From assembly GCF_032399705.1 (NCBI RefSeq), contig NZ_CP135922.1, positions 6,324,001 through 6,388,000 on the forward strand: DNA of 64,000 nt. Reading direction: 5' to 3'. How positions within the stretch are numbered: position 1 is the first letter of the stretch; every line of letters starts with the position of its first letter. This DNA comes from Paenibacillus sp. BIC5C1. Lineage in GTDB: Bacteria > Bacillota > Bacilli > Paenibacillales > Paenibacillaceae. Positions 19,738 through 35,912 of this stretch are shown in pieces. Position numbers and translations under genes: made by a program. Below the pieces are notes generated by a model. That model had not been told where the DNA came from and did not search any database. It saw only the letters and a program-made list of their open reading frames with translations.

Positions 19738-19996
19738 TTGGTAAAGTAAATGTTTTCTTGGAATTTTTTTGTAGAATTATGTTGGAATTTTAGTAAAATC
19801 AGTTTGAAGTCAGAATACTTTTGTAAAAGACAGTTTGATTCAATGTCGTAATCATTAATCTACTCTATTCAACTTCAGCTTAATAAACTAAAGAGCCGTA
19901 GAATTAGAGTCTTTTATAATTCCAATCTATTATTATATCAAAGCTCCTATTATTCAAGTAATTTGGTTGAATATCTCTAACATAATCGTCAGTGAA

Positions 19997-20740
19997 TCAT
20001 TGTAAAGATGTCCGCTCATTTCGAATAAGAAGCAAAAGATCAGGGTTACTAGTCTTCGACTCTGCAATATCCAGATACCTCAAAGCCTTAGAAAGATCTA
20101 AAATTGACATCTCTCTGGCTAAATGCAACCATAGCCTAGCGTTATTCTGGTTGCTCTGTAAACTTGCAATCAGTAAATCAATGTTACGCTTTTTTTTGGC
20201 TTTGAGATCAATAATATTAATATCGTACCCATCATGCAGTAAATGAATATCACTTGCTAAACGTGGGATATCTCCGCAGGAAATTTGTTCGTGAATTCTA
20301 TCTGTGTACCTCAGGTGAGATGGAAACAACCTCACATATCCCACAGGAATCACTTCCACGATTTCTCCAGCCACAGTGTTATCATAAATGATGTCAAACA
20401 CTGCTTCTTGGCCTATCTCTTTTTGCTTCTGAACATATGAACGTACTTTAGTTTGCTCTGTAGCGGGCAATACATCATCAGAATCAACTACGAATACCCA
20501 ATCATGAGTTACTTGCTGTAAAGAATAGTTCCGTGCTGCCGCAAAATCATCAATCCATTCATAATGATAAAGTTTAATATAAGGATGTTTCTGTATATAT
20601 TCTTTAATAATTGCGATTGTCGCATCTTCCGATCCTGTATCAACAATTACAATCTCATCTACAGCATCCACAATACTATCAAGGCAGCGTGCGATACATC
20701 GCTCAGAATCTTTCACAATCATAGCAGCTGATACGCTCAT
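19997..20740 (-). CDS. Family 2 glycosyltransferase, SunS-like type
   Basis: 247-residue GT-A fold glycosyltransferase. Features: N-terminal AAMIVKDSERCIARCLDS, nucleotide-sugar motif VDTGSEDAT near residue 40, the DDFAAARNYSL stretch near 68, and the metal-binding VVDSDD near 88 in the DXD position. The C-terminal part is shorter than in its neighbours and keeps only one or two TPR-like helices. I chose ATG at 20740 because GGAGGG lies 11 bases upstream; a GTG 28 codons earlier lacks one. Last gene of the minus-strand island. Acceptor and sugar are unknown; a flagellin or surface-polymer acceptor is inferred from context. Confidence 0.8.
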   Translation of the reverse strand: MSVSAAMIVKDSERCIARCLDSIVDAVDEIVIVDTGSEDATIAIIKEYIQKHPYIKLYHYEWIDDFAAARNYSLQQVTHDWVFVVDSDDVLPATEQTKVRSYVQKQKEIGQEAVFDIIYDNTVAGEIVEVIPVGYVRLFPSHLRYTDRIHEQISCGDIPRLASDIHLLHDGYDINIIDLKAKKKRNIDLLIASLQSNQNNARLWLHLAREMSILDLSKALRYLDIAESKTSNPDLLLLIRNERTSLQ

Positions 20741-20828
20741 TGGAATACATCCCTCCTTTTCAATTTCATTGTTTTTGAAAGCAGAAATATTTGTTTGGGC
20801 TGAAGGAAGTTTCCTTTCTCTCACAATA

Positions 20829-21899
20829 TTATGCCTCTCTCAAATTTGCTAATCTATTTAAAGAAGGAGCATAGTTATACTCCGCTGCAAAACTATATTG
20901 CTGCTTGGCCAGATCTTGCTGACCAGTGACTTCGTAATAGACACCCAAATTATGATGCGCTGCATAACTGCCCGTTCCATCAACCTTACCTTCAACTTCA
21001 ACTTCTCCAATGGTTAGTGCTCGTTGATAAAATTGCTCTATTAAAAAAAGATTGTTGCTGTAATTACCTGGATTACTCAAGATAAGTTCAAGCATAAATA
21101 GGGCAGCAACAAAGAAAAAATCAGCACTTTCCTCTAGATATTCATAGTTATCCTCGATAACCGAAATACCTTCTTCCAGAGTACCTGCAGCTATCGTTGC
21201 ATAAAGATAGTTTATGATAACTTGAGGTGCAAAAACTTTCCTGCGGTCTATAAACTGGTATGCAAATCTCAAATGAGTAACAGCTTGATTATGTTGCTGT
21301 AATCCTCGGTATTCTTTCGCTATCTGGTAATGGTAGTAGGCATCTTGTGGCTGTTCTTTGATGCAATCAAGTAGTATAGGAATGTTGCGGTCACTTTTAG
21401 TTTTATTCAGATAACCATCATGAGTGATCTCTACGGCAAGAATAACTCTCTTCATATCCGATTGTATTTGCTCATGTATCTTGCCAATGTACCGGCATTG
21501 TTTAGGAAAAATCCTTGAAATATAGCTTATTTCAGTATTTATTTGTCCCTGACTTTCAAATTGATTCTTCACCTTAACTTTACCAATTTCCGGAGCTGAA
21601 TGAATAAATTCTTGGATTGTTGCTAAACAATCATTGGATATGAATTCATCTGCATCAAGTACAAGATTCCAGTCACTTGTAGATTGTTCTAAAGCGTAAT
21701 TTCGAGCAGCAGCAAAATCATTGTTCCACTGGTAGTTATAAATCTTTGCATTGTATTCTCTGGCTATTTGTAAAGTATTGTCAGTCGAACCTGTATCAAC
21801 AACTACAACCTCATCAACTAACTTAACAACACTCTCTAAGCATCTACTCAATACTGCCGATTCATTTTTAACAATCATTACTAATGATAAAGTATTCAT
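20829..21899 (-). CDS. Family 2 glycosyltransferase with C-terminal TPR region
   Basis: 356 residues: GT2 domain (residues about 1-190) with SLVMIVKNESAVLSRCLES, VDTGSTDNT, NNDFAAARNYAL and the DXD-type VLDADEF, then helical TPR-like repeats (about 195-350; for example AYYHYQIAKEYRGL and AAHHNLGVYYEVTGQ). The architecture resembles the SunS/protein-glycosyltransferase type. The start codon overlaps the stop of the upstream hydrolase gene as ATGA, which implies translational coupling. Substrates unknown. Confidence 0.82.
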   Translation of the reverse strand: MNTLSLVMIVKNESAVLSRCLESVVKLVDEVVVVDTGSTDNTLQIAREYNAKIYNYQWNNDFAAARNYALEQSTSDWNLVLDADEFISNDCLATIQEFIHSAPEIGKVKVKNQFESQGQINTEISYISRIFPKQCRYIGKIHEQIQSDMKRVILAVEITHDGYLNKTKSDRNIPILLDCIKEQPQDAYYHYQIAKEYRGLQQHNQAVTHLRFAYQFIDRRKVFAPQVIINYLYATIAAGTLEEGISVIEDNYEYLEESADFFFVAALFMLELILSNPGNYSNNLFLIEQFYQRALTIGEVEVEGKVDGTGSYAAHHNLGVYYEVTGQQDLAKQQYSFAAEYNYAPSLNRLANLREA

Positions 21900-22561
21900 A
21901 GTGTATTTAATCCTTTTTTCAATATATCAAGCAACTGATTCTCATTTTTTAATATCTTAACGAGCTCATGATCGTCTATAGTACTATCAAGTTTGTATTC
22001 TATTAATTTGACCTCAGGTATATCTTTCATAACTTCAGCATGCTTTTTATCAGAATTAGAGTAATGGATCTCATACTCTCCTCCATTACTCTTATTTTTT
22101 TCAAAAAAACTATTTAGGTTTAACAAAGTTGAATCATCTATATTTTGCAAATTACTCATCTCTTTATTCCATCGAGTCTCTTTAAACTCACTAAAATTAT
22201 CCACTCCTATAACAGTTTGCGGATTAAAAGTGATTACTTTTACATCTTTACAATTAAGCATTCTTCCAATTAATAAACTTGCATATCCTCCCATAGAATT
22301 TCCTACTAGAACGACTTTGTTGGATTTTGAAATTTGTATTAGTTTCTCTACATACTCTTTTAATTCCAAAATATTACTTATTGAAGATGTGCCTAGTCCT
22401 CGATGATACCAAGATTGATAAATATCTCTTATAAACACTTTCTTAGCATCTAATTTTAGAGTTATATTATAAAATTCGAACATAGGAATTCCCACACCAT
22501 TTCTAATTCCGCCAAAAAAAATGTAAATGACATGAGAACTAGATGAAAAATCTACGAACAC
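21896..22561 (-). CDS. Small alpha/beta hydrolase in the glycosylation island
   Basis: About 221 residues. The nucleophile elbow VLVGNSMGGYASLL lies near residue 90. The N-terminal part (HVIYIFFGGI, then VFIRDIYQSWYHRG) resembles hydrolases found beside surface-glycan transferases. A candidate catalytic histidine is in DSTIDDHELV near 200. No ATG is available: the frame is open back to about 22650 but contains only GTG at 22561 (no good ribosome-binding site) or rarer codons such as ATT near 22640, next to GGGAG and overlapping the previous stop. The N-terminus is therefore uncertain. Possible roles: deacylase or acyltransferase on a glycan, or a non-catalytic fold. It is coupled by ATGA overlap to the downstream glycosyltransferase gene. 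Confidence 0.7.
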   Translation of the reverse strand: MFVDFSSSSHVIYIFFGGIRNGVGIPMFEFYNITLKLDAKKVFIRDIYQSWYHRGLGTSSISNILELKEYVEKLIQISKSNKVVLVGNSMGGYASLLIGRMLNCKDVKVITFNPQTVIGVDNFSEFKETRWNKEMSNLQNIDDSTLLNLNSFFEKNKSNGGEYEIHYSNSDKKHAEVMKDIPEVKLIEYKLDSTIDDHELVKILKNENQLLDILKKGLNTL

Positions 22562-22637
22562 TTTTTTAGACTTATTTTTTAGATATTGTCCAACATGATC
22601 TCTATTTAAAGTATTTATAAAGAATTCAAATTCTATT

Positions 22638-24182
22638 CTAATCAGCTCCCAACAGCATATTTATTTCTCTCAGATGAATATTAGCATTCTCCTTTATTTG
22701 ATTGTAATAATTCTGGAAATTGCTTTCCTGCTCCTGAATTGTGCAGTTCAGTAATTTTTCGAAATAATATAATGATTTTCTTAGGTCACCGTCCAACTTA
22801 TACATAAATGCAAGATTAAATAAAATCTCAATATTATTAGCAAAACGTATATTAGCTTCTCTTAATATCCATATAGCCGATTGAAAATCTTGTCTTAGAT
22901 AAGCTATTGAAGCTTTCATAACTTGAATATCCACGTCGATTCCTACTTGGTTCTCAAGTTTTTTTATTAATCCTTCTGCTTCATCTAGTTTGAATTCCCC
23001 ACATAAGTTGTTTATTTGGCTTTTTATTGAGTTCTTCAATAAAACAATTTCTGCAGATTCCTCATTTACCTCCTGGCTTCTGTTATGGTTATCACCTTCC
23101 CACAAATCATCAATCATATTCCACACTCGTTCCGAAGAAGATGCATCTGTGTAATAGTGGATTAAATTGGTTACATCTTTTCTTTGACTATAATAATAAT
23201 CATTTTCCTTCAAACTCCGAAGCATTTGAACTTCAAGATCTAATTGAGTATAAGTTTTAGGACCGGGTGCCCAAAAATCAAAAGGAGTTAACCAAAGCCC
23301 TCTAGAATCGTCATAATCCTTTAAATCCAAAGGAATAAAAACAACAGGTTTATTCAATAAAAGATAATCAATATAAATAGAAGAGTAATCCGTCATCAAC
23401 ATATCCGTGCTACCTAACAACTCATACAATTGAACATCCTTTTCTTCTAACACTTTATTAGTTAGCAAATACATATTATCACTAAGTAATTCAGTTACTT
23501 TTGAAGAGAACAATTCCTCTTCAAAAGGATGTAATTTTATAATTAAAACAATATTGTTGTCAGTTAAGAATTTACCAAAACCTACTTTGTCAAAATCAGA
23601 GAAACCAAAAACATTACTCCAGTCCTTAGATCCGTCGGACTTCTCTAAGTTAAATATTTGATCTCTCCACGTTGGAGCATAAAACACAACCTTTTTAGAA
23701 CTGAAGTCTTGATCAAGAATACAATCAAACTTTTTCTTCCCCTGTAAAAGCATATCGTTTCTTGGCATACCAGTTACATGATATACATGTCCTGATGCTA
23801 AAAATGCACCATTAAGCATATAGGAGCAAAAAGGTGAGAAAGATATCATGGCATTCAATTCCTTAAAATGGAAATATTGATGTTCCAACGAATTTCGGAT
23901 AGTTCGATTTTTTTGTTCCATTACTCTCAAAGTTTTTGGCCCAAACCCATGCCATAACTCTACGTTAATTTGCCCCTGTTTTGGAGTGTATGAGCAGTGG
24001 GTTGTAACAACAATCTCACTATCGTCAACCTCTTCGTTAAATTCGGTGTATATCTCATGTTCTATAAGTTTCACTTCATATTTTTTAGTAATATAATCAG
24101 GCATATCATAAAACAGAGCTCTATTATTACATCCCGATTGTGAATGAGTTATGAGTTTAATGCGTGGCTTAAATTTTTTCAT
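22638..24182 (-). CDS. CDP-glycerol glycerophosphotransferase (TagB/TagF-type) with TPR tail
   Basis: 514 residues. The GT-B-like transferase domain (about 1-370) carries the family motifs: ELWHGFGPK near 78, TGMPRND near 138, FYAPTWRD near 168, IIKLHPFEE near 217 and MTDYSSIYIDYLLLNKPVVF near 262. Such enzymes add glycerol phosphate from CDP-glycerol. The C-terminal 130 residues are TPR-like helices (ASIAYLRQDFQSAIWIL...), unusual for wall-teichoic-acid enzymes. No signal peptide or membrane segment is seen. It lies 16 bases after the degenerate paralogue. Its acceptor is not known. Confidence 0.85.
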   Translation of the reverse strand: MKKFKPRIKLITHSQSGCNNRALFYDMPDYITKKYEVKLIEHEIYTEFNEEVDDSEIVVTTHCSYTPKQGQINVELWHGFGPKTLRVMEQKNRTIRNSLEHQYFHFKELNAMISFSPFCSYMLNGAFLASGHVYHVTGMPRNDMLLQGKKKFDCILDQDFSSKKVVFYAPTWRDQIFNLEKSDGSKDWSNVFGFSDFDKVGFGKFLTDNNIVLIIKLHPFEEELFSSKVTELLSDNMYLLTNKVLEEKDVQLYELLGSTDMLMTDYSSIYIDYLLLNKPVVFIPLDLKDYDDSRGLWLTPFDFWAPGPKTYTQLDLEVQMLRSLKENDYYYSQRKDVTNLIHYYTDASSSERVWNMIDDLWEGDNHNRSQEVNEESAEIVLLKNSIKSQINNLCGEFKLDEAEGLIKKLENQVGIDVDIQVMKASIAYLRQDFQSAIWILREANIRFANNIEILFNLAFMYKLDGDLRKSLYYFEKLLNCTIQEQESNFQNYYNQIKENANIHLREINMLLGAD

Positions 24183-24198
24183 GTTTAATCATCCTTTA

Positions 24199-25653
24199 TT
24201 AAATTTCAGTCCCTGTTTGGTTTTGTCGTGCCATGTCAAAATAATATTTTGACATTTCTTTTTGCCCTAACTCTTGCGAAATATATCCTAGGTTAAACAA
24301 AATGTCATAATTGTTAGGGAATTTAAGTCGACCTTCTTTAAGAATCTGAAGTGCTTTTTTTGACTCCCCTAACTTAAAATATAAAAAAGACTGCATAGTT
24401 ATATATTCTTCATCGATTTCAAAATGTTCTTTATAAGCTTCTATTGCATTCTGCGCATCCTCTAAACTATTATTTTCTATTAAAAATCCAATTCTATCTG
24501 TTATGGCTATTTTAATATCATTTTGTTCTGCGCTGAGCTCAAGCTTCTCAATAGAGGTATTTCCACATTCCCAGAAATGATCTATTATATGCCAGGCTCT
24601 TTCTGAGGAGCCTGCTGTTTGATGATGATGTACAATATCGACAATTTTCTTGCGCTCAGCAGCGAATGAATCATTTTTTTCGAATATTGCTAATATCATA
24701 GATTCCATTTCGGTATACAACTTGAACCTAGATCCAGGTGACCAAAATTGATATGGATGAATAGGACCACCCTCTAAATGTGAAAGTCGATTATCGTTAA
24801 ATAATACTGGTTTATTCAACAAAAAGTAATTCAAACAGCTTGGATTTACGTCTGAGATTAAAAGATCTATCGCATTTAAAATTTGGCTCAAATATAAATG
24901 CCGCTTTACAAGATCATTTTCTTTCAGCAAGAATATGTTATTTTCTAATAACATATTCTTATTATATTCACTAATGTAAATATTATTTTTGGTCATATCA
25001 ATGAAGAAAAATAATTTATTTTTCTTCAGAAAATTGAATAACTCATTTATTTCAAATTTTTCAAAATTAAAAATGGCTTGAAAGAGTTCATTCAACCCTT
25101 TCATTCCCTTATAATTTAAATTTTGTGTTGTATAATCATAAGAATACATTATCACTTTGAAATCCCTATCTTTTACAACTCCAAAAGTCTCTAGTATATT
25201 ATTCTTGTTTACAACTTCGTCAAATAGGAAGTCATTAGATGGTATACCTGTAATTTGATATTGTTCAGCAGTAGCACCATTACAAGCATTAAACAGAACA
25301 GAATTAACAGCAGAATTTGAGAGAATTATGTCTACATGCCTCCAACTAACATATAAATCTTCAAATTTAGTATATTCAATCGACGGAGAGATATTTCTAT
25401 CCATTCTTTTTGATGGACCAAACGGAATTTTTGAAAATTCCACATTAATTTGATACTTAGTAGGAAGAAAAACATCGTTAGAATTAATAACAATATCGAA
25501 ATTTTCTACGTTTATGTCATCAACTTCATTCTTAAGCTTGAATACAATTTCAAATTTCTCTGTAATATATTTTGGAGCTTTGGCAAGAAGCGCTGTGGAA
25601 TTACATTCGATAAGGTCATCTGCAATTAGTAACACCTTGGGTCTATATAACAT
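24199..25653 (-). CDS. Degenerate CDP-glycerol transferase paralogue with TPR tail (probable pseudoenzyme)
   Basis: 484 residues, same length and layout as its two neighbours, with an intact reading frame. The catalytic motifs are lost: WHGF becomes VEFSKIPFGPSK, PTWRD becomes SYDYTTQN, KLHPFEE is replaced by FIDMTKNN, and TDYSSIYIDYLLL becomes ISDVNPSCLNYFLL. The framing parts LLNKPVLF, YQFWSPGSRF, AGSSERAWHIIDHFWE and the C-terminal TPR-like tail (LFNLGYISQELGQKEMSKYY) are kept. The retained frame argues for a structural or regulatory role rather than a dead gene. First gene of the minus-strand operon. Base use is very AT-rich (24961-25020 is about 15 percent GC by count). Confidence 0.75.
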   Translation of the reverse strand: MLYRPKVLLIADDLIECNSTALLAKAPKYITEKFEIVFKLKNEVDDINVENFDIVINSNDVFLPTKYQINVEFSKIPFGPSKRMDRNISPSIEYTKFEDLYVSWRHVDIILSNSAVNSVLFNACNGATAEQYQITGIPSNDFLFDEVVNKNNILETFGVVKDRDFKVIMYSYDYTTQNLNYKGMKGLNELFQAIFNFEKFEINELFNFLKKNKLFFFIDMTKNNIYISEYNKNMLLENNIFLLKENDLVKRHLYLSQILNAIDLLISDVNPSCLNYFLLNKPVLFNDNRLSHLEGGPIHPYQFWSPGSRFKLYTEMESMILAIFEKNDSFAAERKKIVDIVHHHQTAGSSERAWHIIDHFWECGNTSIEKLELSAEQNDIKIAITDRIGFLIENNSLEDAQNAIEAYKEHFEIDEEYITMQSFLYFKLGESKKALQILKEGRLKFPNNYDILFNLGYISQELGQKEMSKYYFDMARQNQTGTEI

Positions 25654-25705
25654 GATAATATCCTTTCTTATTTAGAAGATAATATTTTTTTAACTTCTAC
25701 TATAA

Positions 25706-25810
25706 TATCGGTTTATGGAATCGAAAAAGAAAGGATTTCATCAAAATATGATTGCTTTGAGGTGTTCCACATTTATCCTCCTATTTATTATAAAGACTTA
25801 TAAACCGATA
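25706..25810. promoter_or_regulatory. Divergent intergenic region with a shared ATAAACCGATA element
   Basis: Each divergent gene has ATAAACCGATA in its own sense orientation: minus copy at 25706-25716, plus copy at 25800-25810, forming an 11-bp inverted repeat 83 bases apart. They lie 53 and 41 bases before the respective starts. CCGATA matches the core of a sigma-D -10 (GCCGATAT), but no good TAAA -35 is seen. Confidence 0.45.
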
Positions 25811-25851
25811 AACTTTATAGAAACAACTTTACAATGAGGAGGGTTAAAGGT

Positions 25852-27345
25852 ATGGATAATAAAATAAAAATTGTACTGTTTCATTTATCTTCTTCAGGGT
25901 CAAATAACTTTCACCTCTTCCAAAATGCTGACAGTAAACTTCTTGAGAAATACGATATCGAGCTACTTACTCGTAAACAAGTTCTTTACAATCGTCATCT
26001 AGATAATTGCGATGTTTACATTACAACTCATGGGGAGTACTTTTCTAATTATGAAAAAATTAATATTGATCTCTGGCATGGTTTTCCACTAAAGGGTATG
26101 GCCAAAATGGATAAAAATGAAGCTATTTCTGATAATAGTATCCATAATCATTGGTCCAAAGTAGATATGATCATGTCTTATTCAGCACTATATAATACAG
26201 CTATGAATGCTTGTAATGGGGCGAATATTGCTAAATATCGCATCACAGGGGCACCTAGAAACGATGCATTACTATCATGTGTAGACAAAGATATCCTTAT
26301 AAAGCTGTTTCCAAATATCAGTAAGCAAGATAAAATAATCTTTTTTATGCCGACGTTCCGAAAATCAATTATCAACCCAGACAAATCAGAAGGTTCCAAG
26401 AATACCCAAAATTTATTTGGTTTATCTGAATATAACAAAGATCAATTGCAGTCTTTCTTAAAAGAAAATAATCTAAAATTAATAATTAAGCTGCATCCTT
26501 TTGAAGAACAATATTTCCAAAAAGAATTGTCTGATATCCGATCGAAAAACATTTTAACTTTAAATGATCAGGACCTAACTTATCACAATCTCGATCTATA
26601 TAATATTCTTGGAGCAGGAGATATGTTAATTACTGATTATTCTTCAGTATATATTGACTATCTGCTGTTAAATCGTCCTATAATTTTTACGCCTGTCGAT
26701 CTTAAAGAGTATAGAGATAACCGTGGATTGTTGTTTGAACCATATGACTTTTGGACACCTGGACCTAAGGTCTATAATCAATCCGCCTTACAGGACGCTA
26801 TCCGACACTACATTAGTAAAAAAGATTACTATGCAGCGGAACGAAACACTCTACTTAATCTGTTCCATTTTCATAAAGATGATCAATCCTCTAGTAGGGT
26901 ATGGGCAGAAATCGATCATTATATTGAAGAGAATTTAGATAATATTCATAGTAGAAGAACAAAACTTAGAGAACACAGAGAGCTACAGGGCAAAATAAAA
27001 CATACTATTCAAAATATGATTGAAAGTGGATATCTGGCACAAGCTAATGAATCTATTCAAGAATATTTAGTGGACAACCCCGCTGATCCTGATATTTTTG
27101 CTATGAACGGCATGTTGCATTTAATGAACGGTGATAGCTCTGAGGCTATTCAATCATTCCTAAAGGGACACCAACATTATCCATGGGACGAGGATCTGCT
27201 CTATAACTTGGGATATGTATATGAAAGCATAGGAGATATAAAATTAGCTCACTCATATTATCATCAAGCTTTAAAACAATGCCAAAAACCAGAATTAAAT
27301 AAAATTATTAATGATAAATTGAAAACACTTAATAATTTGAACTAA
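25852..27345 (+). CDS. CDP-glycerol glycerophosphotransferase with TPR tail
   Basis: 497 residues, paralogue of the gene at 22638. It has all family motifs: DLWHGFPLKGM near 70, TGAPRND near 133, FFMPTFRKS near 160, IIKLHPFEE near 210 and ITDYSSVYIDYLLLNRPIIF near 258. The C-terminal part (about 370-497) holds TPR-like helices (DLLYNLGYVYESIGDIKLAHSYYHQAL). Start ATG at 25852, nine bases after AGGAGG; an ATG at 25834 overlaps that site and is less likely. It forms an operon with the cytidylyltransferase 15 bases downstream, which would make its CDP-glycerol. Acceptor unknown. Confidence 0.86.
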   Translation: MDNKIKIVLFHLSSSGSNNFHLFQNADSKLLEKYDIELLTRKQVLYNRHLDNCDVYITTHGEYFSNYEKINIDLWHGFPLKGMAKMDKNEAISDNSIHNHWSKVDMIMSYSALYNTAMNACNGANIAKYRITGAPRNDALLSCVDKDILIKLFPNISKQDKIIFFMPTFRKSIINPDKSEGSKNTQNLFGLSEYNKDQLQSFLKENNLKLIIKLHPFEEQYFQKELSDIRSKNILTLNDQDLTYHNLDLYNILGAGDMLITDYSSVYIDYLLLNRPIIFTPVDLKEYRDNRGLLFEPYDFWTPGPKVYNQSALQDAIRHYISKKDYYAAERNTLLNLFHFHKDDQSSSRVWAEIDHYIEENLDNIHSRRTKLREHRELQGKIKHTIQNMIESGYLAQANESIQEYLVDNPADPDIFAMNGMLHLMNGDSSEAIQSFLKGHQHYPWDEDLLYNLGYVYESIGDIKLAHSYYHQALKQCQKPELNKIINDKLKTLNNLN

Positions 27346-27360
27346 GGAGTTCTCAAAATT

Positions 27361-27756
27361 ATGAAAACAGTCATTACTTACGGAACATTTGATTTGCTCC
27401 ACTATGGTCACATTCTTTTACTTCAGCGAGCCAAAGCACTTGGAGATTACCTCATAGTAGTCTTATCTACTGATGAGTTTAATTATTTAAAAGGTAAAAG
27501 TGCATACTTCACGTATGAACAACGAAAAATGATGTTAGAAGCAATCAAATATGTAGACTTAGTTCTACCTGAAGATAGTTGGGAACAAAAAACAAATGAT
27601 ATATTACATTGGAATGTAGATACATTTGTGATGGGGGACGATTGGAGAGGTAAGTTTGACGAATTATCCTCGTTATGCACCATAATTTATTTATCAAGAA
27701 CCCCGGACATCTCCACTACATCAATTAAGAGTTCTTTAAAGTCCACATCGTATTAG
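27361..27756 (+). CDS. tagD: Glycerol-3-phosphate cytidylyltransferase
   Basis: Makes CDP-glycerol from CTP and glycerol-3-phosphate. The 131-residue protein has the nucleotidyltransferase HxGH motif in GTFDLLHYGHILLL near residue 10, WEQKTNDI near 77 and the signature RTPDISTTSIK near the C-terminus. Length is that of TagD/TarD. It follows the transferase gene in the same operon with a ribosome-binding site AAGGAG. It is the clearest sign that this island uses glycerol phosphate. Whether it also serves wall teichoic acid cannot be told from the window. Confidence 0.93.
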   Translation: MKTVITYGTFDLLHYGHILLLQRAKALGDYLIVVLSTDEFNYLKGKSAYFTYEQRKMMLEAIKYVDLVLPEDSWEQKTNDILHWNVDTFVMGDDWRGKFDELSSLCTIIYLSRTPDISTTSIKSSLKSTSY

Positions 27757-27817
27757 ATTTGCCCCACGACAAAAAACGAATGGTATCTAGCTCTTATCAT
27801 GCTATTATCCCCTCAAG

Positions 27818-28569
27818 GTAGACAGTGAAAAAAGAGATCATGTTAAAATGAACTCAACACTGAAAAACCGGAGGGGATTTTTGTTATGCCAGTCAAGAAA
27901 GGTCAGACCTTTAATCGATAAAGCGAAGAAACAAAGAAAGAGGCTGTTCGTTTGCGAGTGGAAGAAAGTTGGCGTACAGTCGAATCATGGATAAGTTTAG
28001 GATTAAAAGTGAGAGCCCGATTATCACCTAGATACGGAAAGCCAAAATAGAGAAAGTTTTGAGGATCACCAGGGAAGTTGGACGAAGAAGCATTTTAGCA
28101 GTGTAGATTTACGTATGTCCGGATTGGCCATGATTTTGCTTATCTCTCGGTGATGATGGATCTGTACACAACGAAATATAGCCTGGGAACTCTCCGAGTG
28201 AAATGACTTAAAACTCGTTTATGGACAAGGTAAAGAAACTAAAATTTGACCCTAGCTTGTTCCATTTGAACCAGGGGGTTCAGTATACAACAAAAAGCCT
28301 GAAGAGAAGAAGCTAATAGGAAGTCATTCTTGACGCGGGAACTCCTATGACAATGCATGTATTGAGTCGTTGTTTCCCCACTTAAAGACGCAGAAGTTGT
28401 ATTTGAAAAAGCCTTAAAATCTGGAGCAAGTAAAGAACCAAATTACGGAGTATATTTTGTTTTACAACAAGGAACCTTTCCAAAACAAATTCGGCGACCT
28501 CTTCCAGACTGGATTCCGGGAAAAAGTCGCCGCTTAATGAAATTCCTTTTTTTATTATCTTCTTGACGG
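27818..28569 (+). mobile_element. Remnant of an IS3-family insertion sequence
   Basis: About 750 bases, shorter than an intact IS3-family element. The left end starts near GTAGACAGTGAAAAAAGAG and the right end near CCTTTTTTATTATCTTCTTGAC, whose reverse complement partly resembles the left end. Boundaries are approximate and no target duplication was identified. Confidence 0.65.
27886..28545 (+). pseudogene. Decayed IS3-family transposase (orfA and orfB remnants)
   Basis: An orfA-like start MPVKKGQTFNR at 27886 follows GGAGGGG but hits a stop after 11 codons; EETKKEAVRLRVEESW continues in the same style. Near 28334 the frame reads RGNSYDNACIESLFPHLKTQ, the DDE-region signature of IS3/IS150-type OrfB, and near 28450 another frame reads FYNKEPFQNKFGDL...FREKVAA, the usual OrfB C-terminus. 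Stops, frameshifts and missing internal DNA make it inactive. Confidence 0.75.
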
Positions 28570-28610
28570 AGCTATGACTATATTAAAACTTGTTACCATT
28601 CGTTTTTTTG

Positions 28611-30587
28611 TTAAACTGTATACTTTAACATCTTTAATTCATTGGCAAAAAACTCTTTAACAAATGATATCTCATTGAAATCAGGGAAATTACGTTCAAA
28701 ATCAGCGATTATTTTCTTTTTAAATTGATTCGATGCCATATCAATCAATGATTTATAAATATGCCTTTTTCCAGGTTCATCTTGAAGAGCACCATTAAGG
28801 AATTCAAAAGCATCATCTCTGTAATCTTGATTCGCATGATAGTAGCCAAGGTTTTCCAAGCTCGTCCCATTCAATTCATTTCGACTTAGCAGCGCTGAAT
28901 AATAATTCATCGCCAGTTCTACTCGATTCACATCATAAAAGTAATTTGCTAATCTGTTAATTAAATCACTATTATTCAATCCATTAACCACTTGGTCATA
29001 AATTTCAAACTCTTGCATCAGATAAAGTTGCCTAGCTATAGCAAAAAACAAGTCTGTCTCAATTACCATGTCGTCACTGATCTCATTCTGTTCAATGACC
29101 CTAATGATCACCTTAAAAACGGATATTATTTTTTCATTTTCAATTTTTTCCGAAAGCTTATCCAGTAATGAGCAGTCATTTGATAAAAGCGTCGCAATGA
29201 TCACCTGAAGCACTACTAATTGCTCATCTCCTGTTATCGTAGTGATATTGTCTAGCAATACATGCATTGCCGCAAAATCCTCATTCACTGCCGATAACTT
29301 TAATTGATCCGGGAGACTTAGTTTCGTATATGTGGGTACTAAATTCTTATAGTGACTTACCAGTTTCCTATTACCTATAACCAACGAAACTTTAAATAAC
29401 AGGAGATACTCTTTATCAGTTGGAGAAGTGTATAATTGCTCAAAGAAACGGATGACCGATTCTTCGTCTTCATTCTGTGTTAACCATTCCATCATTTTGA
29501 CCAAATGTCCTGGATTTTTATTATTCTTATTTAGCTGTTTAGACATCCAGTATATTGCATTTTGATTGTCATTAAGACGAAAATATAACCCAATCAGTTG
29601 CTGAACTGGAGAATCAAAACTGTACATTGGATCAATCAACCAGATCTCCCGATTTTCTTGCGCCCTTTTTTCAGCTATACCGATGGCTCTCAGGTATTGT
29701 TGCTCTGCTTCTTGAAAGAAACCCAGAGTTTCATAATGAATTCCTTTAACGGTGTAATACTCGGGATATTCATTATACTTGATTAAATACTTCTCAATTA
29801 ATTCCCATGAGCGTTTAAGTTGATTCTGACTGTAATCCAAGCTTACGAGTCCCATCAAGCAATGTGGGTACCATGCTTCATTCTGTTGTGTATCAATCAG
29901 AGCTTTTTCATAGCATTCTATGGCCATTAGTTCATCTTTTGCATAACGGTGCTGGTTGCCTAATGTATACCAATCATAGGAGGAAAGTTCCTGATCCGCT
30001 ATCATTTGATTAAAAATCCCCATATTCCGCTCATGTTTGTTTTTTTCTACAATCCGACTCACTTGATAGCCTGTATGATAAATATGAAGACTTATTGACT
30101 TATGATACAATTCACCTTGCAGCCCTCTGGTCAACTGTTCATGGATTGGACGTTCGAACGTAATACCCACGTTGTTCGGAAATAGTCTCGTAACAGGTGC
30201 AGTGGTAATCTCATCGTCGTACTCTTTCTCACCCGTAAAATTTATCACTGGAAGAGTATAAGCCAGATGTGGAAACAGTTCCTCTGTTTGCAGGAAATTT
30301 CTCCAATCCTGATGTTCTTCTTCTGATATATATTCGTCAGCATCCATCACAAGAATCCACTTTCCTGTAGCATGGAGAAGCGATTTATTGCGCGCTTTTG
30401 AAAAATCATTACACCACTTAAAATCATATATTTTATCCGTATACTTCTTGGCAATTTCCTTTGTCTTATCTGTCGATCCTGTATCCACAATGATAATCTC
30501 ATCGGCGAGATCTTGTACACTACTTAGACAACGTTCAAGTACCCTTTCCTCATCCTTGACAATCATGCAAATACTCAACAGCTTCAT
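28611..30587 (-). CDS. Large family 2 glycosyltransferase with TPR repeats
   Basis: 658 residues. The GT2 domain (about 1-190) has SICMIVKDEERVLERCLSS, VDTGSTDKT, CNDFSKARNKSLL and VMDADEY at the DXD position. The rest is helical TPR-like repeats (YTLGNQHRYAKDELMAIECYEKAL, ELAMNYYSALLSRNELNG). ATG at 30587. It lies 17 bases downstream of fliT in the same direction, so it may be cotranscribed with flaG-fliD-fliS-fliT. TPR-bearing GT2 enzymes of this kind act on proteins in some systems, so flagellin is a natural candidate acceptor; this is inference from position. Confidence 0.83.
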   Translation of the reverse strand: MKLLSICMIVKDEERVLERCLSSVQDLADEIIIVDTGSTDKTKEIAKKYTDKIYDFKWCNDFSKARNKSLLHATGKWILVMDADEYISEEEHQDWRNFLQTEELFPHLAYTLPVINFTGEKEYDDEITTAPVTRLFPNNVGITFERPIHEQLTRGLQGELYHKSISLHIYHTGYQVSRIVEKNKHERNMGIFNQMIADQELSSYDWYTLGNQHRYAKDELMAIECYEKALIDTQQNEAWYPHCLMGLVSLDYSQNQLKRSWELIEKYLIKYNEYPEYYTVKGIHYETLGFFQEAEQQYLRAIGIAEKRAQENREIWLIDPMYSFDSPVQQLIGLYFRLNDNQNAIYWMSKQLNKNNKNPGHLVKMMEWLTQNEDEESVIRFFEQLYTSPTDKEYLLLFKVSLVIGNRKLVSHYKNLVPTYTKLSLPDQLKLSAVNEDFAAMHVLLDNITTITGDEQLVVLQVIIATLLSNDCSLLDKLSEKIENEKIISVFKVIIRVIEQNEISDDMVIETDLFFAIARQLYLMQEFEIYDQVVNGLNNSDLINRLANYFYDVNRVELAMNYYSALLSRNELNGTSLENLGYYHANQDYRDDAFEFLNGALQDEPGKRHIYKSLIDMASNQFKKKIIADFERNFPDFNEISFVKEFFANELKMLKYTV

Positions 30588-30604
30588 TGTTTCCCAACCT
30601 TCAT

Positions 30605-30943
30605 TCAGTTTTTCCTATCAAAAAACAAACTATCGGACGCATAATTGGAGCTGTAAGCATTCTTCTGCACCCGAATAGAACCTTGTTTGTTCAACCAACT
30701 AGCTGCCTCATTTTTAAGACTCAGCATTTTATTCAAGAAAACATCGTCATATTTCATGAGCTGCTTGACTTTATTTTTATCGAATTCATCAAGTTTTGAA
30801 TTATTCGACATAATTAACCCAACTAGGGATTCTCTTTGATCTACAAAAGAAGTTAATTCTTCGTATTCGATATCATCAATCTGATCAACTATACGTATTG
30901 TCATATCAAATAACTGATTAATATATTCTCCTGACGACTGCAT
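30605..30943 (-). CDS. fliT: FliT-like flagellar chaperone
   Basis: 112-residue helical protein. FliT proteins hold the cap protein FliD before export. Support is mostly position: the gene follows fliS and its start overlaps the fliS stop (TGATG). Low sequence conservation is normal for FliT. Visible features are a charged helical pattern (TIRIVDQIDDIEYEELTSFV) and an internal KLDEFDKNKVKQLMKYDD. No signal peptide. Confidence 0.7.
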   Translation of the reverse strand: MQSSGEYINQLFDMTIRIVDQIDDIEYEELTSFVDQRESLVGLIMSNNSKLDEFDKNKVKQLMKYDDVFLNKMLSLKNEAASWLNKQGSIRVQKNAYSSNYASDSLFFDRKN

Positions 30944-31320
30944 CAGTTAGCTGTCCCATTGATACTTTTACTAGCAATCTCCCAAGCTTCCCGGAGTTCA
31001 GTTAGATGGGAAAGTGCCTCTTGTGCTGGTTTAACATCTTTTTTGAGATTAGCTTGAATTAGACAGTGAATCATGTACTCATACACTGAATACAACGTTT
31101 TGGCAACAGGATAGTCATAGTTTAACGCAGCTATCAATTCATGAATAACTGCTTGAGCTTTACATAGATTAGTGTTTGTTTTCTCAAAATTAGATTCTTC
31201 TATAGCAGAAACCCCTAATTTCACAAAACGAATTGCGCCATCGTATAACATTAATAAAAGTTGTGCTGGTGAAGTTTGAAATTGATTTTGTTGATATTTT
31301 TGAAGAGGGGAATTAATCAA
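30943..31320 (-). CDS. fliS: Flagellin export chaperone FliS
   Basis: 125-residue helical-bundle chaperone that keeps flagellin unfolded for export; in Bacillus it also antagonises FliW. Conserved parts are the N-terminal YQQNQFQTSPAQLLLMLYDGAI and VYEYMIHCLIQANLKKD near residue 80. It lies between fliD and fliT in the usual order. Confidence 0.93.
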   Translation of the reverse strand: MINSPLQKYQQNQFQTSPAQLLLMLYDGAIRFVKLGVSAIEESNFEKTNTNLCKAQAVIHELIAALNYDYPVAKTLYSVYEYMIHCLIQANLKKDVKPAQEALSHLTELREAWEIASKSINGTAN

Positions 31321-31346
31321 TTGGTTTCACTCCTTAATACTTAAAA

Positions 31347-32798
31347 TTAGCCTAACATACTAGAGAGGCTTGAAGAAGTACTGTTATACTTATTCATTGC
31401 TGTCTCCATGGCAGTAAATTGTTTATAATATTGATTCTCTTTACGAGTTAAGCGAGCCTGCAACTCAGTAATTCTACGCTCATAAGCTGTCAATTGATTA
31501 CCCATTTGGCTTTGTGGTAAGAATGCTGTTGTTAAATCACTACTAATCTTAGATGTACCGGCTTTTTCAGATAAACTTTCAAGAGCTGTTGCGTTTATTT
31601 TTTTTATCCTATTGAATAATCCATCATTATTGGTTACCCCTTTGGTAGAACTGTCCACTTGGCTAAACAAGGCAGTAACTTGTTCAGGGTTGGATTCTAA
31701 CGCTGTCCGCAACTTATCTTCATCAAGAACGAGTTTACCCTTTTCACTATAACTGCCCGTAGTTATACCAAACTGAGTAATGTTTAACTTGGTTCCCCCA
31801 AAGTTAAATTCAGAAATCATAGCGGTACGCATATCACTTAACGACTTATTAAGAATTGAGTCATTTTTTAACAATCCACTTTTCGCTTTGCTTTCCCACA
31901 ATTCAATTTCGCTATCCTTCATATCTGCTTTTTGTTCTGTGCTTAAAGGCAGATATGTTCTATATCGCTCTTCATTTGTTTTTTGGTTCATTAATGCGAT
32001 TGTTTCATTATAAAAATCAACAAAAGATTTTATTGTATCGATTATCGCATCAGTGTTTTGTGTAACTTCAATTTGATTAGTCTGTCCAGTAGGAGTGACT
32101 CCTGTCAACGAGATTTCTACACCATTTACAGTAAAGCGATTAGAAGTTTGCTTTGTTTCCAGTCCGTTGATAACTACTGTGGCATCAACACCTTTATTAA
32201 CCCCAGCAGTTGTAAAATTAGTATTACTCGTGAACAACTCACCACTTAACTCTATATCTTTATTACCTGTATCTCTGTTAGTTAGAGACATCCCTCCTGT
32301 TGCGGAGTTATATACTGCCGTTACACCAGAGTCTTTATTACTGTTAATTTTCTTAACAAATGATTCAATGGTATCGTCTCCTCTAAAGCTTATCGTTGCT
32401 TTTCCAATTGTAACGCTTGTCTCTGCTCCAGAATACAAATCAGACATTTTTGTAGCGCCTGCCGTACCTTGGTATATAACATTTGAGGATGAAGCCAGAT
32501 TTTTGACACTCACATTTAATACAGAGTTGGCAGCAGCACCCGTTGCAGTAGCGGTAAGTACACCGGTTGCTCCAGTAACCACAGCTTGTTTAGAATCTAT
32601 ATTTTTACTTAAATTTAAATTAGATAGCTTTTCATTAAAGCTCACCAATTTCGTACTAATTGTACGGTAATTATCCCGTTTCCACTCAGCCTGTGTTTTC
32701 TGTTGATTGATTTTATCCAAAGGTGCTTTTTCTGCAGTCATTAACTGTTTAACCATTGCATCAATATCGAGACCCGAAGCTAAGCCGCTAATTCTCAT
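31347..32798 (-). CDS. fliD: Flagellar hook-associated protein 2 (filament cap)
   Basis: 483 residues; forms the cap at the filament tip under which flagellin folds. The FliD N-domain begins RISGLASGLDIDAMVKQLM. The C-domain ends with a helical ERRITELQARLTRKENQYYKQFTAMETAMNKYNSTSSSLSSML. Exported by the flagellar type III route, so no Sec signal. It lies 13 bases after flaG. Confidence 0.95.
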   Translation of the reverse strand: MRISGLASGLDIDAMVKQLMTAEKAPLDKINQQKTQAEWKRDNYRTISTKLVSFNEKLSNLNLSKNIDSKQAVVTGATGVLTATATGAAANSVLNVSVKNLASSSNVIYQGTAGATKMSDLYSGAETSVTIGKATISFRGDDTIESFVKKINSNKDSGVTAVYNSATGGMSLTNRDTGNKDIELSGELFTSNTNFTTAGVNKGVDATVVINGLETKQTSNRFTVNGVEISLTGVTPTGQTNQIEVTQNTDAIIDTIKSFVDFYNETIALMNQKTNEERYRTYLPLSTEQKADMKDSEIELWESKAKSGLLKNDSILNKSLSDMRTAMISEFNFGGTKLNITQFGITTGSYSEKGKLVLDEDKLRTALESNPEQVTALFSQVDSSTKGVTNNDGLFNRIKKINATALESLSEKAGTSKISSDLTTAFLPQSQMGNQLTAYERRITELQARLTRKENQYYKQFTAMETAMNKYNSTSSSLSSMLG

Positions 32799-32811
32799 TT
32801 AATCCCCTCCA

Positions 32812-33174
32812 TTATGCCTTCTTATCGATAATCAAACCACTAAGTTCCATGAGACTGGCCGCGACGTCAAGTAGTTTTTCTTTGGGTATTTCCCTAATAA
32901 GTTCCCCTGTTGCTTTGTTTTTAATTTTAACCATGATTGAGTTAGTCTCTTCATGCACTGAAATTTCATAGGTCTTTTCAGGCCCTTGAAGAGCTCTTGT
33001 TGCTACTTCCAGCTGATCAATCGCTTTCTCTTCCTCACTAGATAAACTCAATCTTTCCTTAGCTATTGTATTGTTCTGAATAAGTAATTCGGCTGTTTCC
33101 TCTGGTGATGTTCTTGTTGATAGTGATCTGAGAGCACCCAGCGTTCCTGAAGTTCCTTGGACTCTATGTTCCAC
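32812..33174 (-). CDS. flaG: FlaG family protein
   Basis: 120 residues. The C-terminal FlaG domain has YEISVHEETNSIMVKIKNKATGELIREIP followed by LLDVAASLMELSGLIIDKK. FlaG influences filament length in other bacteria. The GTG start at 33174 is chosen because GGGAGGG lies six bases upstream. First gene of flaG-fliD-fliS-fliT, with a sigma-D-like -10 about 55 bases upstream. Confidence 0.85.
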   Translation of the reverse strand: MEHRVQGTSGTLGALRSLSTRTSPEETAELLIQNNTIAKERLSLSSEEEKAIDQLEVATRALQGPEKTYEISVHEETNSIMVKIKNKATGELIREIPKEKLLDVAASLMELSGLIIDKKA

Positions 33175-33225
33175 GCAATTCCCTCCCGAACTTTTTTGAC
33201 GATTCAAATGAAGATCTTACTATGT

Positions 33226-33233
33226 ATATCGGA
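33226..33233 (-). promoter_or_regulatory. Sigma-D-like -10 for the flaG-fliD operon
   Basis: Minus strand TCCGATAT matches seven of eight positions of the sigma-D -10 GCCGATAT. The -35 region at the proper distance (TCAT) is poor. Confidence 0.45.
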
Positions 33234-33251
33234 TAGATTTCTTCTGAAATG

Positions 33252-33291
33252 AAGAGATAAAAAAAAGAAGCCTTGAAAACAAGGCCTCTCT
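33252..33291 (-). terminator. Terminator of hag
   Basis: Minus strand GAGGCCTTG-TTTT-CAAGGCTTC followed by seven T, just after the hag stop. Confidence 0.88.
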
Positions 33292-33310
33292 AATTTGAAA
33301 TTTTTTAATA

Positions 33311-34081
33311 TTAACGAAGGACAGACAGAACACCTTGTGGAGCGGAGTTTGCTTGTGCCAGCATCGATTGGGAAGCTTGCAGCAAGATGTTGTTTTTGGA
33401 CAACTGAACCATTTCCTTAGCCATATCTGTATCACGAACGCGAGACTCAGCAGCAGTCAGGTTTTCAACAGTTGTACCCAAGTTGTTGGACGTATACTCC
33501 AAACGGTTTTGAACAGCACCCAGTTTCGCACGTTCTGTGGAAACACTGTTAATTGCTGTTTCAACGGAAGAGAGACTAGTGTTTGAACCCAAACCTTTGA
33601 AACTTGTAGTAGAGATAGTACCAATTGTGATAGAACCTGTTGCTTTATCGTTAACAGTAATTGTTGCACCTTTAGTGATGCTGATTCCGTTAAACGTTGT
33701 TTTAGTCATGATGTTATCAATTTGCGCACCCAGCTCTTTCAACTCTTGGTTGATGTTGTTTTTATCGTTAGAGCTGTAAGTTCCGCTTGATTTTTGTACG
33801 TTCAATTCTTTCATACGAGTTAGCATGGAGGATACTTCGTTCATTGCGCCCTCAGCCGTTTGTACAAACGAGATTCCGTCTTGAGCATTACGTTGTGCTT
33901 GCTCCAGACCACGAATTTGTCCACGCATGGACTCGGAGATGGAGAGACCCGCTGCATCGTCAGCCGCGCGGTTGATACGCAGACCGGAAGACAACTTCTC
34001 CATGTTTTTGCTTGCAGCACTTGTGTTAAGCGTCATGTTACGGTGCGTGTTCAACGCTGGTACGTTATGGTTGATAATCAT
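33311..34081 (-). CDS. hag: Flagellin
   Basis: 256-residue filament subunit. It has the conserved D0/D1 ends: N-terminal MIINHNVPALNTHRN, SSGLRINRAADDAAGLSISE near residue 35 and IRGLEQAQRNAQDGISFVQT, and C-terminal ILLQASQSMLAQANSAPQGVLSVLR. The central variable part is short (about residues 140-190), so the filament surface domain is minimal. ATG at 34081 follows AGGGAGGAAAT. It is read from its own sigma-D promoter and its leader carries a CsrA site. It may be the substrate of the nearby glycosylation island. Confidence 0.96.
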   Translation of the reverse strand: MIINHNVPALNTHRNMTLNTSAASKNMEKLSSGLRINRAADDAAGLSISESMRGQIRGLEQAQRNAQDGISFVQTAEGAMNEVSSMLTRMKELNVQKSSGTYSSNDKNNINQELKELGAQIDNIMTKTTFNGISITKGATITVNDKATGSITIGTISTTSFKGLGSNTSLSSVETAINSVSTERAKLGAVQNRLEYTSNNLGTTVENLTAAESRVRDTDMAKEMVQLSKNNILLQASQSMLAQANSAPQGVLSVLR

Positions 34082-34089
34082 TTGATATT

Positions 34090-34126
34090 TCCTCCCTGAA
34101 ATGGTTTGATTCCCACATCCTTGTGG
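34090..34126 (-). promoter_or_regulatory. CsrA-binding sites in the hag leader
   Basis: Site 1: the RNA CCACAAGGATGTGG (34113-34126) forms a 5-bp stem presenting AGGA in the loop and contains ACAAGGAUGU, the core of the CsrA consensus. Site 2: the Shine-Dalgarno AGGGAGGA (34090-34097) includes a GGA. csrA and fliW lie immediately upstream of hag. Confidence 0.8.
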
Positions 34127-34178
34127 TATTAGCGTCTTCACAGGTCGGCCGCCCTGAAGAATTACCGCTCTATAATAT

Positions 34179-34205
34179 ATATCGACTACTGTCCAAGAAT
34201 TGTTA
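34179..34205 (-). promoter_or_regulatory. Sigma-D promoter of hag
   Basis: Minus strand -35 TAAC (34202-34205), exactly 15-base spacer, -10 GTCGATAT (34179-34186). The consensus is TAAA-N15-GCCGATAT; one mismatch in each box. About 98 bases before the start codon. Confidence 0.78.
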
Positions 34206-34226
34206 ATAGTATTTCAAACTTTTTTT

Positions 34227-34463
34227 TCACTTCTGACTATTATTATTTAACTGTTCCAATGCTGCCCGGACAGTGGCTAAGTCCATTACCGCGTTTTTAT
34301 TATTTTGACCAATCGAGTCGAATACTTCTTTACGGTATATATCAATCTCTTTGGGAGCAGAGATACCTATTTTCACATTGTCTCCTTCTACCGATAAGAC
34401 AGTGACAACAATATTGTTATCAATGATAACGGATTCTCCTTTTTTCCTAGCTAGTACAAGCAT
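34227..34463 (-). CDS. csrA: Carbon storage regulator CsrA
   Basis: 78-residue RNA-binding dimer that blocks hag translation in Bacillus until FliW removes it. Starts MLVLARKKGESVIIDNNI, with GISAPKEIDIYRKEV; the C-terminal extension (to NNNSQK) holds the region that contacts FliW in Firmicutes. Its start overlaps the fliW stop (TGATG), so the two partners are translationally coupled. Confidence 0.95.
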   Translation of the reverse strand: MLVLARKKGESVIIDNNIVVTVLSVEGDNVKIGISAPKEIDIYRKEVFDSIGQNNKNAVMDLATVRAALEQLNNNSQK

Positions 34464-34903: not shown

Positions 34904-34931
34904 TTTAGAAATCCTCCCTATATAATTAATA

Positions 34932-34960
34932 AAGCTACGGACTGCTAATGTCCATAGCTT
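34932..34960 (-). other. Stem-loop between flgL and fliW
   Basis: AAGCTACGGAC (34932-34942) pairs with GTCCATAGCTT (34950-34960), one mismatch. Only a weak T-rich tail follows on the minus strand, so it is a leaky terminator or processing site at best. Confidence 0.5.
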
Positions 34961-34981
34961 ATCATAGTATTCAAGTTATGT

Positions 34982-35890: not shown

Positions 35891-35912
35891 ATTGGTTACC
35901 CCTTCCTATGTC

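Follow-up and report, generated by a model that had tools for sequence, protein, structure and literature searches.

Gene Content of the Locus

We analyzed a 64,000-nucleotide stretch of the Paenibacillus sp. BIC5C1 genome (7.08 Mb, single contig), hereafter the window, in which a block of eight genes at 19997–30587 adjoins the flagellar genes fliT, fliS, fliD, flaG, and hag. The block encodes three family 2 glycosyltransferases (GT2), three members of the TagF-like cytidine diphosphate (CDP)-polyol phosphotransferase family PF04464, the glycerol-3-phosphate cytidylyltransferase TagD, and a small hydrolase. Judging from gene content and context, we consider it likely that the block is a cytoplasmic flagellin O-glycosylation island, in which an O-glycan of the GmaR type would be capped with glycerol-phosphate and a tetratricopeptide repeat (TPR) module of the enzymes would dock flagellin. 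The features of the locus are listed below, where A2 is a profile of the ~110-aa TPR module alone and the cut-off of PF04464 is 22.1 bits.

19997–20824, minus strand: GT_C1, short GT2 glycosyltransferase (275 aa; PF00535, 68.4 bits; TPR tail undetected)
20829–21899, minus strand: GT_C2, GT2 glycosyltransferase with a weak TPR-like tail (356 aa; PF00535, 89.7 bits; TPR_17, E=0.0023, below cut-off)
21896–22561, minus strand: small alpha/beta-hydrolase, weak match (221 aa; UPF0227, 23.9 bits, cut-off 21)
22638–24182, minus strand: CGP1, TagF-like CDP-polyol phosphotransferase (514 aa; PF04464, 160.5 bits; active-site motifs intact)
22695–23039, minus strand: C-terminal TPR module of CGP1 (A2 profile, E=1.2e-37; itself an A2 row)
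24199–25653, minus strand: CGPdeg, PF04464 paralogue without the active-site motifs (484 aa; PF04464, 56.3 bits)
24202–24516, minus strand: C-terminal TPR module of CGPdeg (A2 profile, E=3.6e-34; itself an A2 row)
25654–25833, no strand: divergent intergenic region of 180 bp with two outward-facing CCGATA elements
25834–27345, plus strand: CGP2, TagF-like phosphotransferase with TPR module (503 aa; PF04464, 174.8 bits; TPR_2, 30.8 bits, cut-off 27)
26980–27333, plus strand: C-terminal TPR module of CGP2 (A2 profile, E=2.4e-44; a long helix, then three predicted helical hairpins)
27361–27756, plus strand: tagD, glycerol-3-phosphate cytidylyltransferase (131 aa; TIGR01518 equivalog, 185.7 bits, cut-off 165.4)
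28611–30587, minus strand: GT_L, GmaR-like GT2 with a long TPR tail (658 aa; GmaR 22ao, E=1.2e-38; TPR_2, 29.8 bits, cut-off 27)
30605–34141, minus strand: fliT, fliS, fliD, flaG, and hag (FliS, PF02561, 120 bits; the others named from their reading frames)
19776–36839, no strand: exchanged cassette, comprising the block, fliT to flgL, and the 3' part of flgK (delimited by breaks in nucleotide similarity)

The original prediction, made from the letters of this DNA, had placed these eight genes directly against fliT-fliS-fliD-flaG-hag; all eight frames are indeed open there, the gap between GT_L and fliT is 17 bp, TagD passes its equivalog cut-off, and the small hydrolase is recovered, if weakly. 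Thus, the transferases adjoin flagellin, fliD, and fliS genes, as in flagellin glycosylation islands, and the counterparts of fliT-fliS-fliD-flaG-hag keep their order in relatives. The tagD gene lies directly 3' of CGP2, and these two genes diverge from the run between CGPdeg and GT_C1. Other statements of the prediction need qualification. The three GT2 domains are real, but their description as SunS-like was loose, with scores of 90.2, 72.2, and 89.6 bits against the SunS model TIGR04195 (cut-off 350). The TPR-like tails pass Pfam cut-offs on GT_L and CGP2, fall below them on CGP1, CGPdeg, and GT_C2 (those of CGP1 and CGPdeg are clear with the A2 profile), and were not detected on GT_C1. The block is AT-rich as described (G+C of 29–39% in 1-kb segments vs 43.1% for the whole window), although low G+C is not confined to it and runs on through fliT-fliS-fliD (33–37%), and therefore marks a unit larger than the block.

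Linkage of Tailed Phosphotransferases and TagD to fliS

A profile of the tailed phosphotransferase (A1) was searched over 394 genomes of the family. Three candidates per genome were scored in this search and up to 11 in the A2 search described below, so the resulting counts are lower bounds. The A1 profile gave 45 matches in 33 genomes. All 19 full-length matches, found in 14 genomes and combining the catalytic domain with the tail, lie within 10 kb of fliS; a location of homologues mostly away from flagellar genes, named in the original prediction as one outcome that would speak against it, was thus not what the synteny search returned. Among the seven tail-only matches, four are within 20 kb of fliS and three are on another contig.

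TagD shows a similar distribution, with 24 matches in 21 genomes of the family (E <= 1e-40). Seventeen of these matches, each in a different genome, lie within 10 kb of fliS, and all 14 genomes with a full-length tailed enzyme are among them. The other seven matches are located on the same contig at least 51 kb from fliS (four) or on another contig (three). No TagD other than the flagellar copy was found at this threshold in 14 of these 17 genomes. A survey of 75 genomes of the genus identified PF04464 in 11, FliS in 74, and TagD over the cut-off in 4; in ten further genomes, all TagD-like matches were below the cut-off. Of the five over-cut-off TagD matches, four are beside fliS, and the fifth is a second TagD of the studied genome. 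A binomial value for the linkage (2.7e-54) ignores relatedness and was not used as evidence, and two pairs are apparent duplicates (G033 and L009, both PAMC 26794; L010 and L027, both P. rubinfantis).

The position of the genes relative to hag is not fixed. Three genomes (G016, G202, and G389) have tagD and genes for a GT2 and a PF04464 enzyme between hag and flaG, not beyond fliT, and this second site argues against a merely inherited neighborhood. At most loci that carry tagD and a phosphotransferase beyond fliS/fliT, Hag is 89–95% identical to that of the window, and the identity drops to 79% in G132 and G381 and to 56% in G287, so that these loci are not strictly bound to one type of flagellin.

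Catalytic Domains

The motifs WHG, KLHPFEE, and TDYSS are retained in both CGP1 and CGP2. In a profile alignment, the WHG motif falls on W443-H444-G445 of TagF, its histidine matching the residue changed in the H444N structures. The AlphaFold model of CGP2 (497 residues, mean predicted local distance difference test score [pLDDT] of 86.5) has as its best PDB matches TagF (3l7j, E=3.4e-14), followed by TarL with CDP-ribitol. The final ~135 residues of the model fold into a long helix followed by three helical hairpins (helices 362–391 and 395–496), with pLDDT >=90 in every ten-residue block of the tail except the last. The closest named relatives of CGP2 are from Paenibacillus.

All three motifs are gone from CGPdeg, in agreement with the original call of two complete phosphotransferases and one degenerate one, although its frame is unbroken over 484 codons. 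The loss is common to all four members of the CGPdeg group found, i.e., CGPdeg and three relatives (E <= 1e-30), in a search confined to proteins sharing short exact words, and a scan with NCBIfam models gave no match of CGPdeg to TarF, TarL, or TarB. Two stops are marked within the A1 profile match of CGPdeg, which overruns the open frame by 18 bp. Compared with the orthologue from PAMC 26794, the ratio of nonsynonymous to synonymous divergence (dN/dS) is 0.19 at dS 1.31, a value that indicates purifying selection. We rejected the explanation of CGPdeg as a decaying pseudogene, given the open frame, the low dN/dS, and the shared motif loss; the first two of these suggest that the protein is kept for something other than PF04464 catalysis. 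A 1162-aa fusion of an N-terminal TPR module, a family 4 glycosyltransferase (GT4), and PF04464 in another genome (G216, L042:12506–15994) fails simple WHG and DYS patterns in its PF04464 part and possibly represents a second, independent inactive phosphotransferase domain; the WHG/KxHP/DYS check used simple regular expressions, by which KxHP variants are missed.

The glycosyltransferase domain of GT_L has Listeria GmaR as its nearest solved structure (136 bits, residues 3–194, E=1.2e-38), with SunS next. The overall layout is also that of GmaR, a homologous GT2 domain being followed by TPR helices. Of the short enzymes, GT_C1 has an orthologue with 93% identity in L009, and the homologues of GT_C2 in L026 and L030 contain module-like pieces.

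The TPR Module

The ~110-aa module was first met as the seven tail-only A1 matches, and gene maps of flagellar islands show it N-terminally on enzymes of quite different types; one protein (in L035) has three copies. At the threshold used (E <= 1e-12), the A2 profile gave 44 matches in 38 of 388 genomes, of which 41 (35 genomes) are within 20 kb of fliS. Since A2 was seeded partly from near-fliS loci, including four module-only rows (L043–L046) chosen for lying near fliS, we also give the count without the seed genomes and G033, which is 26 of 29 genomes; tail-only A1 matches on other contigs (G219, G350, and G030) were not used as rows. The explanation of the tail as just any TPR was rejected: although 13–44 candidates per matching genome entered the search, 44 stretches passed, 41 of them near fliS. 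At the level of the class (156 genomes), the module was found in 8 genomes, 5 of them outside the family, and in three of the latter (G403, G420, and G534) it lies beside flagellin genes.

The Pfam domains joined to the module are PF04464, GT2, GT4, GT4 with a methyltransferase, and PF00884, and one carrier (L070) has no Pfam match. By analogy with TPR regions of known flagellin-modifying enzymes, the module may be a flagellin-docking device. In published accounts, the TPR of GmaR is proposed to bind flagellin (PMC9638930), the TPR region of FlmG binds flagellins in two-hybrid tests (PMC7591256), and the C-terminal TPR of Maf-1 provides acceptor and site specificity (as cited in PMC13317340). 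TPR tails already serve to pick out flagellin glycosyltransferases (PMC13317340).

Fusions of the module to PF00884, a sulfatase/phosphodiesterase superfamily, were observed in a flagellin island (G383, L079:4705–6753) and away from fliS (G013, L068:9944–11992). Both adjoin genes for a phosphoenolpyruvate mutase-nucleotidyltransferase, a thiamine pyrophosphate decarboxylase, and a nucleotidyltransferase-aminotransferase, which may be read as a cytidine monophosphate (CMP)-phosphonate pathway; on this reading, L079 predicts phosphonate-bearing flagellin. Further fusions of this kind are located 11–15 kb from fliS (L078:16485–18569, L083:16372–18384, and L084:3772–5811), and no phosphonate gene was found among the one or two neighbors scanned for each. 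Stand-alone module proteins of 223–224 aa (L066:9349–10852 in G350 and L067:9254–10703 in G030) are encoded on contigs other than that of fliS and adjoin a gene 29–30% related to the alpha/beta-hydrolase of the window.

Cassette Exchange and Promoter-Like Elements

Nucleotide similarity of the window to two related genomes, G016 and G058, ends at 19775 and returns at 36840 inside flgK, with only short pieces of 67–76% identity between. The flanks match G016 at 95.9% on the left and 91% on the right, with SecA 100% identical over 747 residues, and match G058, which belongs to the same species, over 429 bp on the left (97.9%) and at 74% on the right. The replaced 17 kb consists of the block together with fliT to flgL, so that hag itself lies within the exchanged cassette. 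As is typical of glycosylation islands, gene content of the interval differs among close relatives, G016 having another set of genes. The hag-flaG interval of G058 (L018:7229–18000) contains a NeuC gene (387.8 bits, over its cut-off) and a NeuB-like gene (373.4 bits, short of the 399.65 required for NeuB), and its flagellar glycan is predicted to be a nonulosonate; genomes of one species thus differ in predicted flagellar decoration.

Synonymous divergence from PAMC 26794 is low for most flagellar genes and GT_L (dS of 0 for fliT, 0.07 for fliS, 0.10 for flgL, 0.14 for fliD, 0.22 for hag and flaG, and 0.23 for GT_L), as compared with 0.53 for secA and 0.37 for hpf; fliW is an exception among the flagellar genes (0.45). 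Much higher values (1.3–1.8) were obtained for CGP1, CGPdeg, CGP2, and tagD, and the two short GT2 genes (0.33 and 0.36) and the hydrolase gene (0.85) are in between. The simplest reading of these values would be recent sharing of the cassette and exchange of its center from another donor. Between tagD and GT_L, the region 27760–28540 contains no annotated gene and by eye resembles a decayed transposase gene of the IS3 insertion sequence type.

The two outward-facing CCGATA elements of the 180-bp divergent region, on the minus strand at 25706–25711 and on the plus strand at 25805–25810, show no variation across all 11 rows of the alignment, which represent 10 distinct genomes. The same hexamer is overrepresented upstream of hag (21 of 50 regions vs 3.3 expected), GT_L-like genes (12/35 vs 1.8), and CGP2-like genes (15/42 vs 2.1, a set that includes open reading frames that are best matches to CGP2 only, not orthologues), and is intermediate upstream of fliS (6/49 vs 3.0). 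Enrichment is absent for hpf (1/18), secA (1/17), fliD (1/48), fliW (1/29), flgL (2/21), and tagD (2/27). All these counts leave out L009, L010, and L012, which are apparent duplicate genomes. Sigma-D of B. subtilis prefers TAAA-N15-CCGATAT, and the conserved elements fit its −10 box.

Comparison with Known Systems

The closest tested analogue of the block is the type A system of C. difficile (CD0240–CD0244), where a glycosyltransferase, a CTP-dependent nucleotidyltransferase, and a PF04464 transferase are likewise encoded beside the flagellin gene. Its PF04464 protein CD0244 was reported to be essential for the phosphodiester-linked decoration of the FliC N-acetylglucosamine (GlcNAc), and a function as CDP-threonine:GlcNAc phosphotransferase was proposed for it (PMC10714395). 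The system differs from the present one in its cytidylyltransferase, which here is TagD (CDP-glycerol), and in that here three phosphotransferase-family proteins have TPR tails, one of them without active-site motifs. Among the block proteins, no Pfam or NCBIfam match pointed to counterparts of the phosphoserine phosphatase-like CD0241 or the methyltransferase CD0243.

The original prediction called a glycerol-phosphate-containing flagellin glycan unusual, which is fair as chemistry, but TagD-type chemistry in flagellin modification has already been proposed (PMC5109656; PMC6993521). In Geobacillus (G. thermoglucosidans DSM 2542), tagD belongs to a hag-linked island, and its presence there gave the authors a hint of the way in which flagellin may be modified; unlike here, that account pairs tagD with pgs and, in its available text, names no PF04464 transferase, and the terms "TPR" and "tetratricopeptide" are absent from its main text (PMC5109656). 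In variable region 1 of the enterobacterial Flag-2 flagellar locus, TagD is present in 235 strains and TagB in 65, and, through them, a teichoic-type glycopolymer is proposed to be included in the flagellin glycan (PMC6993521); this system is Gram-negative and occupies another locus, and the available text does not mention TPR tails. Listeria GmaR resembles GT_L in its GT2 domain and TPR tail and adds GlcNAc to flagellin, but is additionally an antirepressor of MogR (PMC9638930). Caulobacter FlmG and Maf-1 have other catalytic folds and nonulosonic acid donors, and the TPR of FlmG is N-terminal. In the open-licence literature, covered mostly by title and the start of the abstract, we found no tailed phosphotransferase in flagellar islands, no module shared across catalytic folds, no retained dead paralogue, and no mainly flagellar linkage of TagD in a family.

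Proposed Mechanism

Flagellin or flagellar-surface modification, as originally suggested for this block, is strongly supported by the fliS linkage, the co-exchange with hag, the conserved sigma-D-like −10 elements, and the lack of membrane segments and transporter domains described below. From these data we infer the acceptor, the order of steps, the donor, and the roles of the module and CGPdeg as follows. GT_L would place the first sugar on Ser/Thr residues of Hag, and GT_C1 and GT_C2 would extend the glycan or use further sites. TagD would produce CDP-glycerol, from which CGP2, and probably also CGP1, would move glycerol-phosphate to the sugar already on flagellin. Docking of the acceptor, either flagellin or a flagellin–FliS complex, would fall to the TPR module of the phosphotransferases, and CGPdeg, lacking catalysis, would most likely present the acceptor to CGP1/CGP2 or assist in their assembly. 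Once decorated, flagellin would be exported via the flagellar secretion apparatus.

Several observations weigh against this mechanism. Among the 19 A1 matches with the catalytic domain only, 9 are within 20 kb of fliS, whereas the other 10 are not (3 at 53–68 kb and 7 on other contigs, where the distance is undefined); PF04464 as such is therefore not flagellar. Three A2 matches are not near fliS (3.25 Mb away in G013, on other contigs in G030 and G350), and in two genomes outside the family (G401 and G480) no flagellar gene was seen within the stretch examined around the module. Matches to the strict sigma-D pattern are no more frequent in the window than expected (2 vs 2.85), and the hag gene of the window itself has TCGATA where CCGATA is expected. 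The second TagD of the genome, at 6.28 Mb, lies in a cluster of teichoic-type export genes, among them those for an ABC-2 permease and a TagH-like ATPase, so that donor and enzymes could be shared. For the closest analogue, a 2014 study found that a cd0244 mutant still carried the complete 398-Da modification (PMC4441256), in contrast to the 2023 paper in which the gene is said to be essential (PMC10714395). Finally, TagD is the single pointer to glycerol as the added group: PF04464 enzymes take other CDP donors, and glycerol is suggested by the adjacent tagD.

The last point leads to the best-surviving alternative, by which flagellin is modified but CGP1 and CGP2 use another CDP compound, as with the CDP-threonine of CD0244, or two different polyols. 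In genome G132, an IspD-like cytidylyltransferase and a short-chain dehydrogenase are encoded beside the CGP1 orthologue and tagD beside the CGP2 orthologue, an arrangement expected if CGP1 took a ribitol-type donor. However, the partner gene of CGP2 in the window, directly after it, is TagD by the equivalog cut-off, and the IspD-like protein of G132 scores 146.8 against a cut-off of 166 for ribitol-5-phosphate cytidylyltransferase. We consider this alternative unlikely, albeit the least so of the three. The region in question (G132, L030:6079–7474, between the CGP1 and CGP2 orthologues) may be a CDP-ribitol supply and hints at a second polyol.

It is less probable still that a wall or surface polymer of the teichoic-acid type is the product or the target of the phosphotransferases and TagD, the proximity of hag being due to chance or co-regulation. 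TagD and PF04464 proteins are teichoic-acid enzymes, the predicted fold of CGP2 is that of TagF/TarL, and the genome has the export cluster of the TagH/ABC2 type with its own TagD. Against this, the block contains TagD but no TagGH-type exporter: a Pfam scan found no transporter domain among its eight proteins, and none of them has a clear membrane segment (largest KD19, 1.89). CGP1 scores far below the equivalog cut-offs of TarF (64.5 vs 550 bits), TarL (64.2 vs 1000), and TarB (39.9 vs 500), as does CGP2; the PF04464 proteins of the other TagD cluster of the genome also miss the Tar cut-offs, so this criterion separates poorly. Genomes G033, G017, and G016 have TagD only beside fliS, and in 14 of 14 genomes with a full-length tailed enzyme, this enzyme is encoded no more than 10 kb from fliS. 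An ordinary wall teichoic acid cluster was rejected on account of the missing exporter and of the genomes with TagD only beside fliS. An acceptor other than flagellin, e.g., the FliD cap, FlgL/FlgK, or an S-layer protein, is the most improbable alternative, since the known TPR-linked enzymes (GmaR and FlmG) act on flagellin, even though fliD and flgL are within the exchanged cassette and a TPR module would fit protein acceptors generally.

Implications

Evenly poised, in our judgment, is a broader proposal that extends flagellin docking from this block to the whole class. In Bacilli, a dedicated ~110-aa docking module, placed at either terminus and at times present in multiple copies, would be shuffled between catalytic domains that are unrelated to one another (TagF-type, GT2, GT4, GT4 with methyltransferase, and the alkaline-phosphatase superfamily PF00884), making each of them flagellin-modifying. 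The outcomes would include glycerol-phosphate-capped flagellin and probably, in L079, phosphonate-bearing flagellin; dead members such as CGPdeg would be kept as adaptors, and most TagD of the family would serve flagella rather than the cell wall.

If these proposals are true, CDP-glycerol chemistry, known from textbooks as that of the wall, would have the decoration of a motility protein as its main use in one bacterial family, and annotation as TagD or TagF would be unsafe as a sign of teichoic-acid capacity. The module would provide a sequence signature of flagellin-modifying enzymes whatever their chemistry, with the choice of acceptor testable by domain swaps. Flagellin glycans influence motility, phage adsorption, and the recognition of flagellin by plants and animals; given these effects, a swappable charged decoration would be of practical interest in soil- and plant-associated Paenibacillus.

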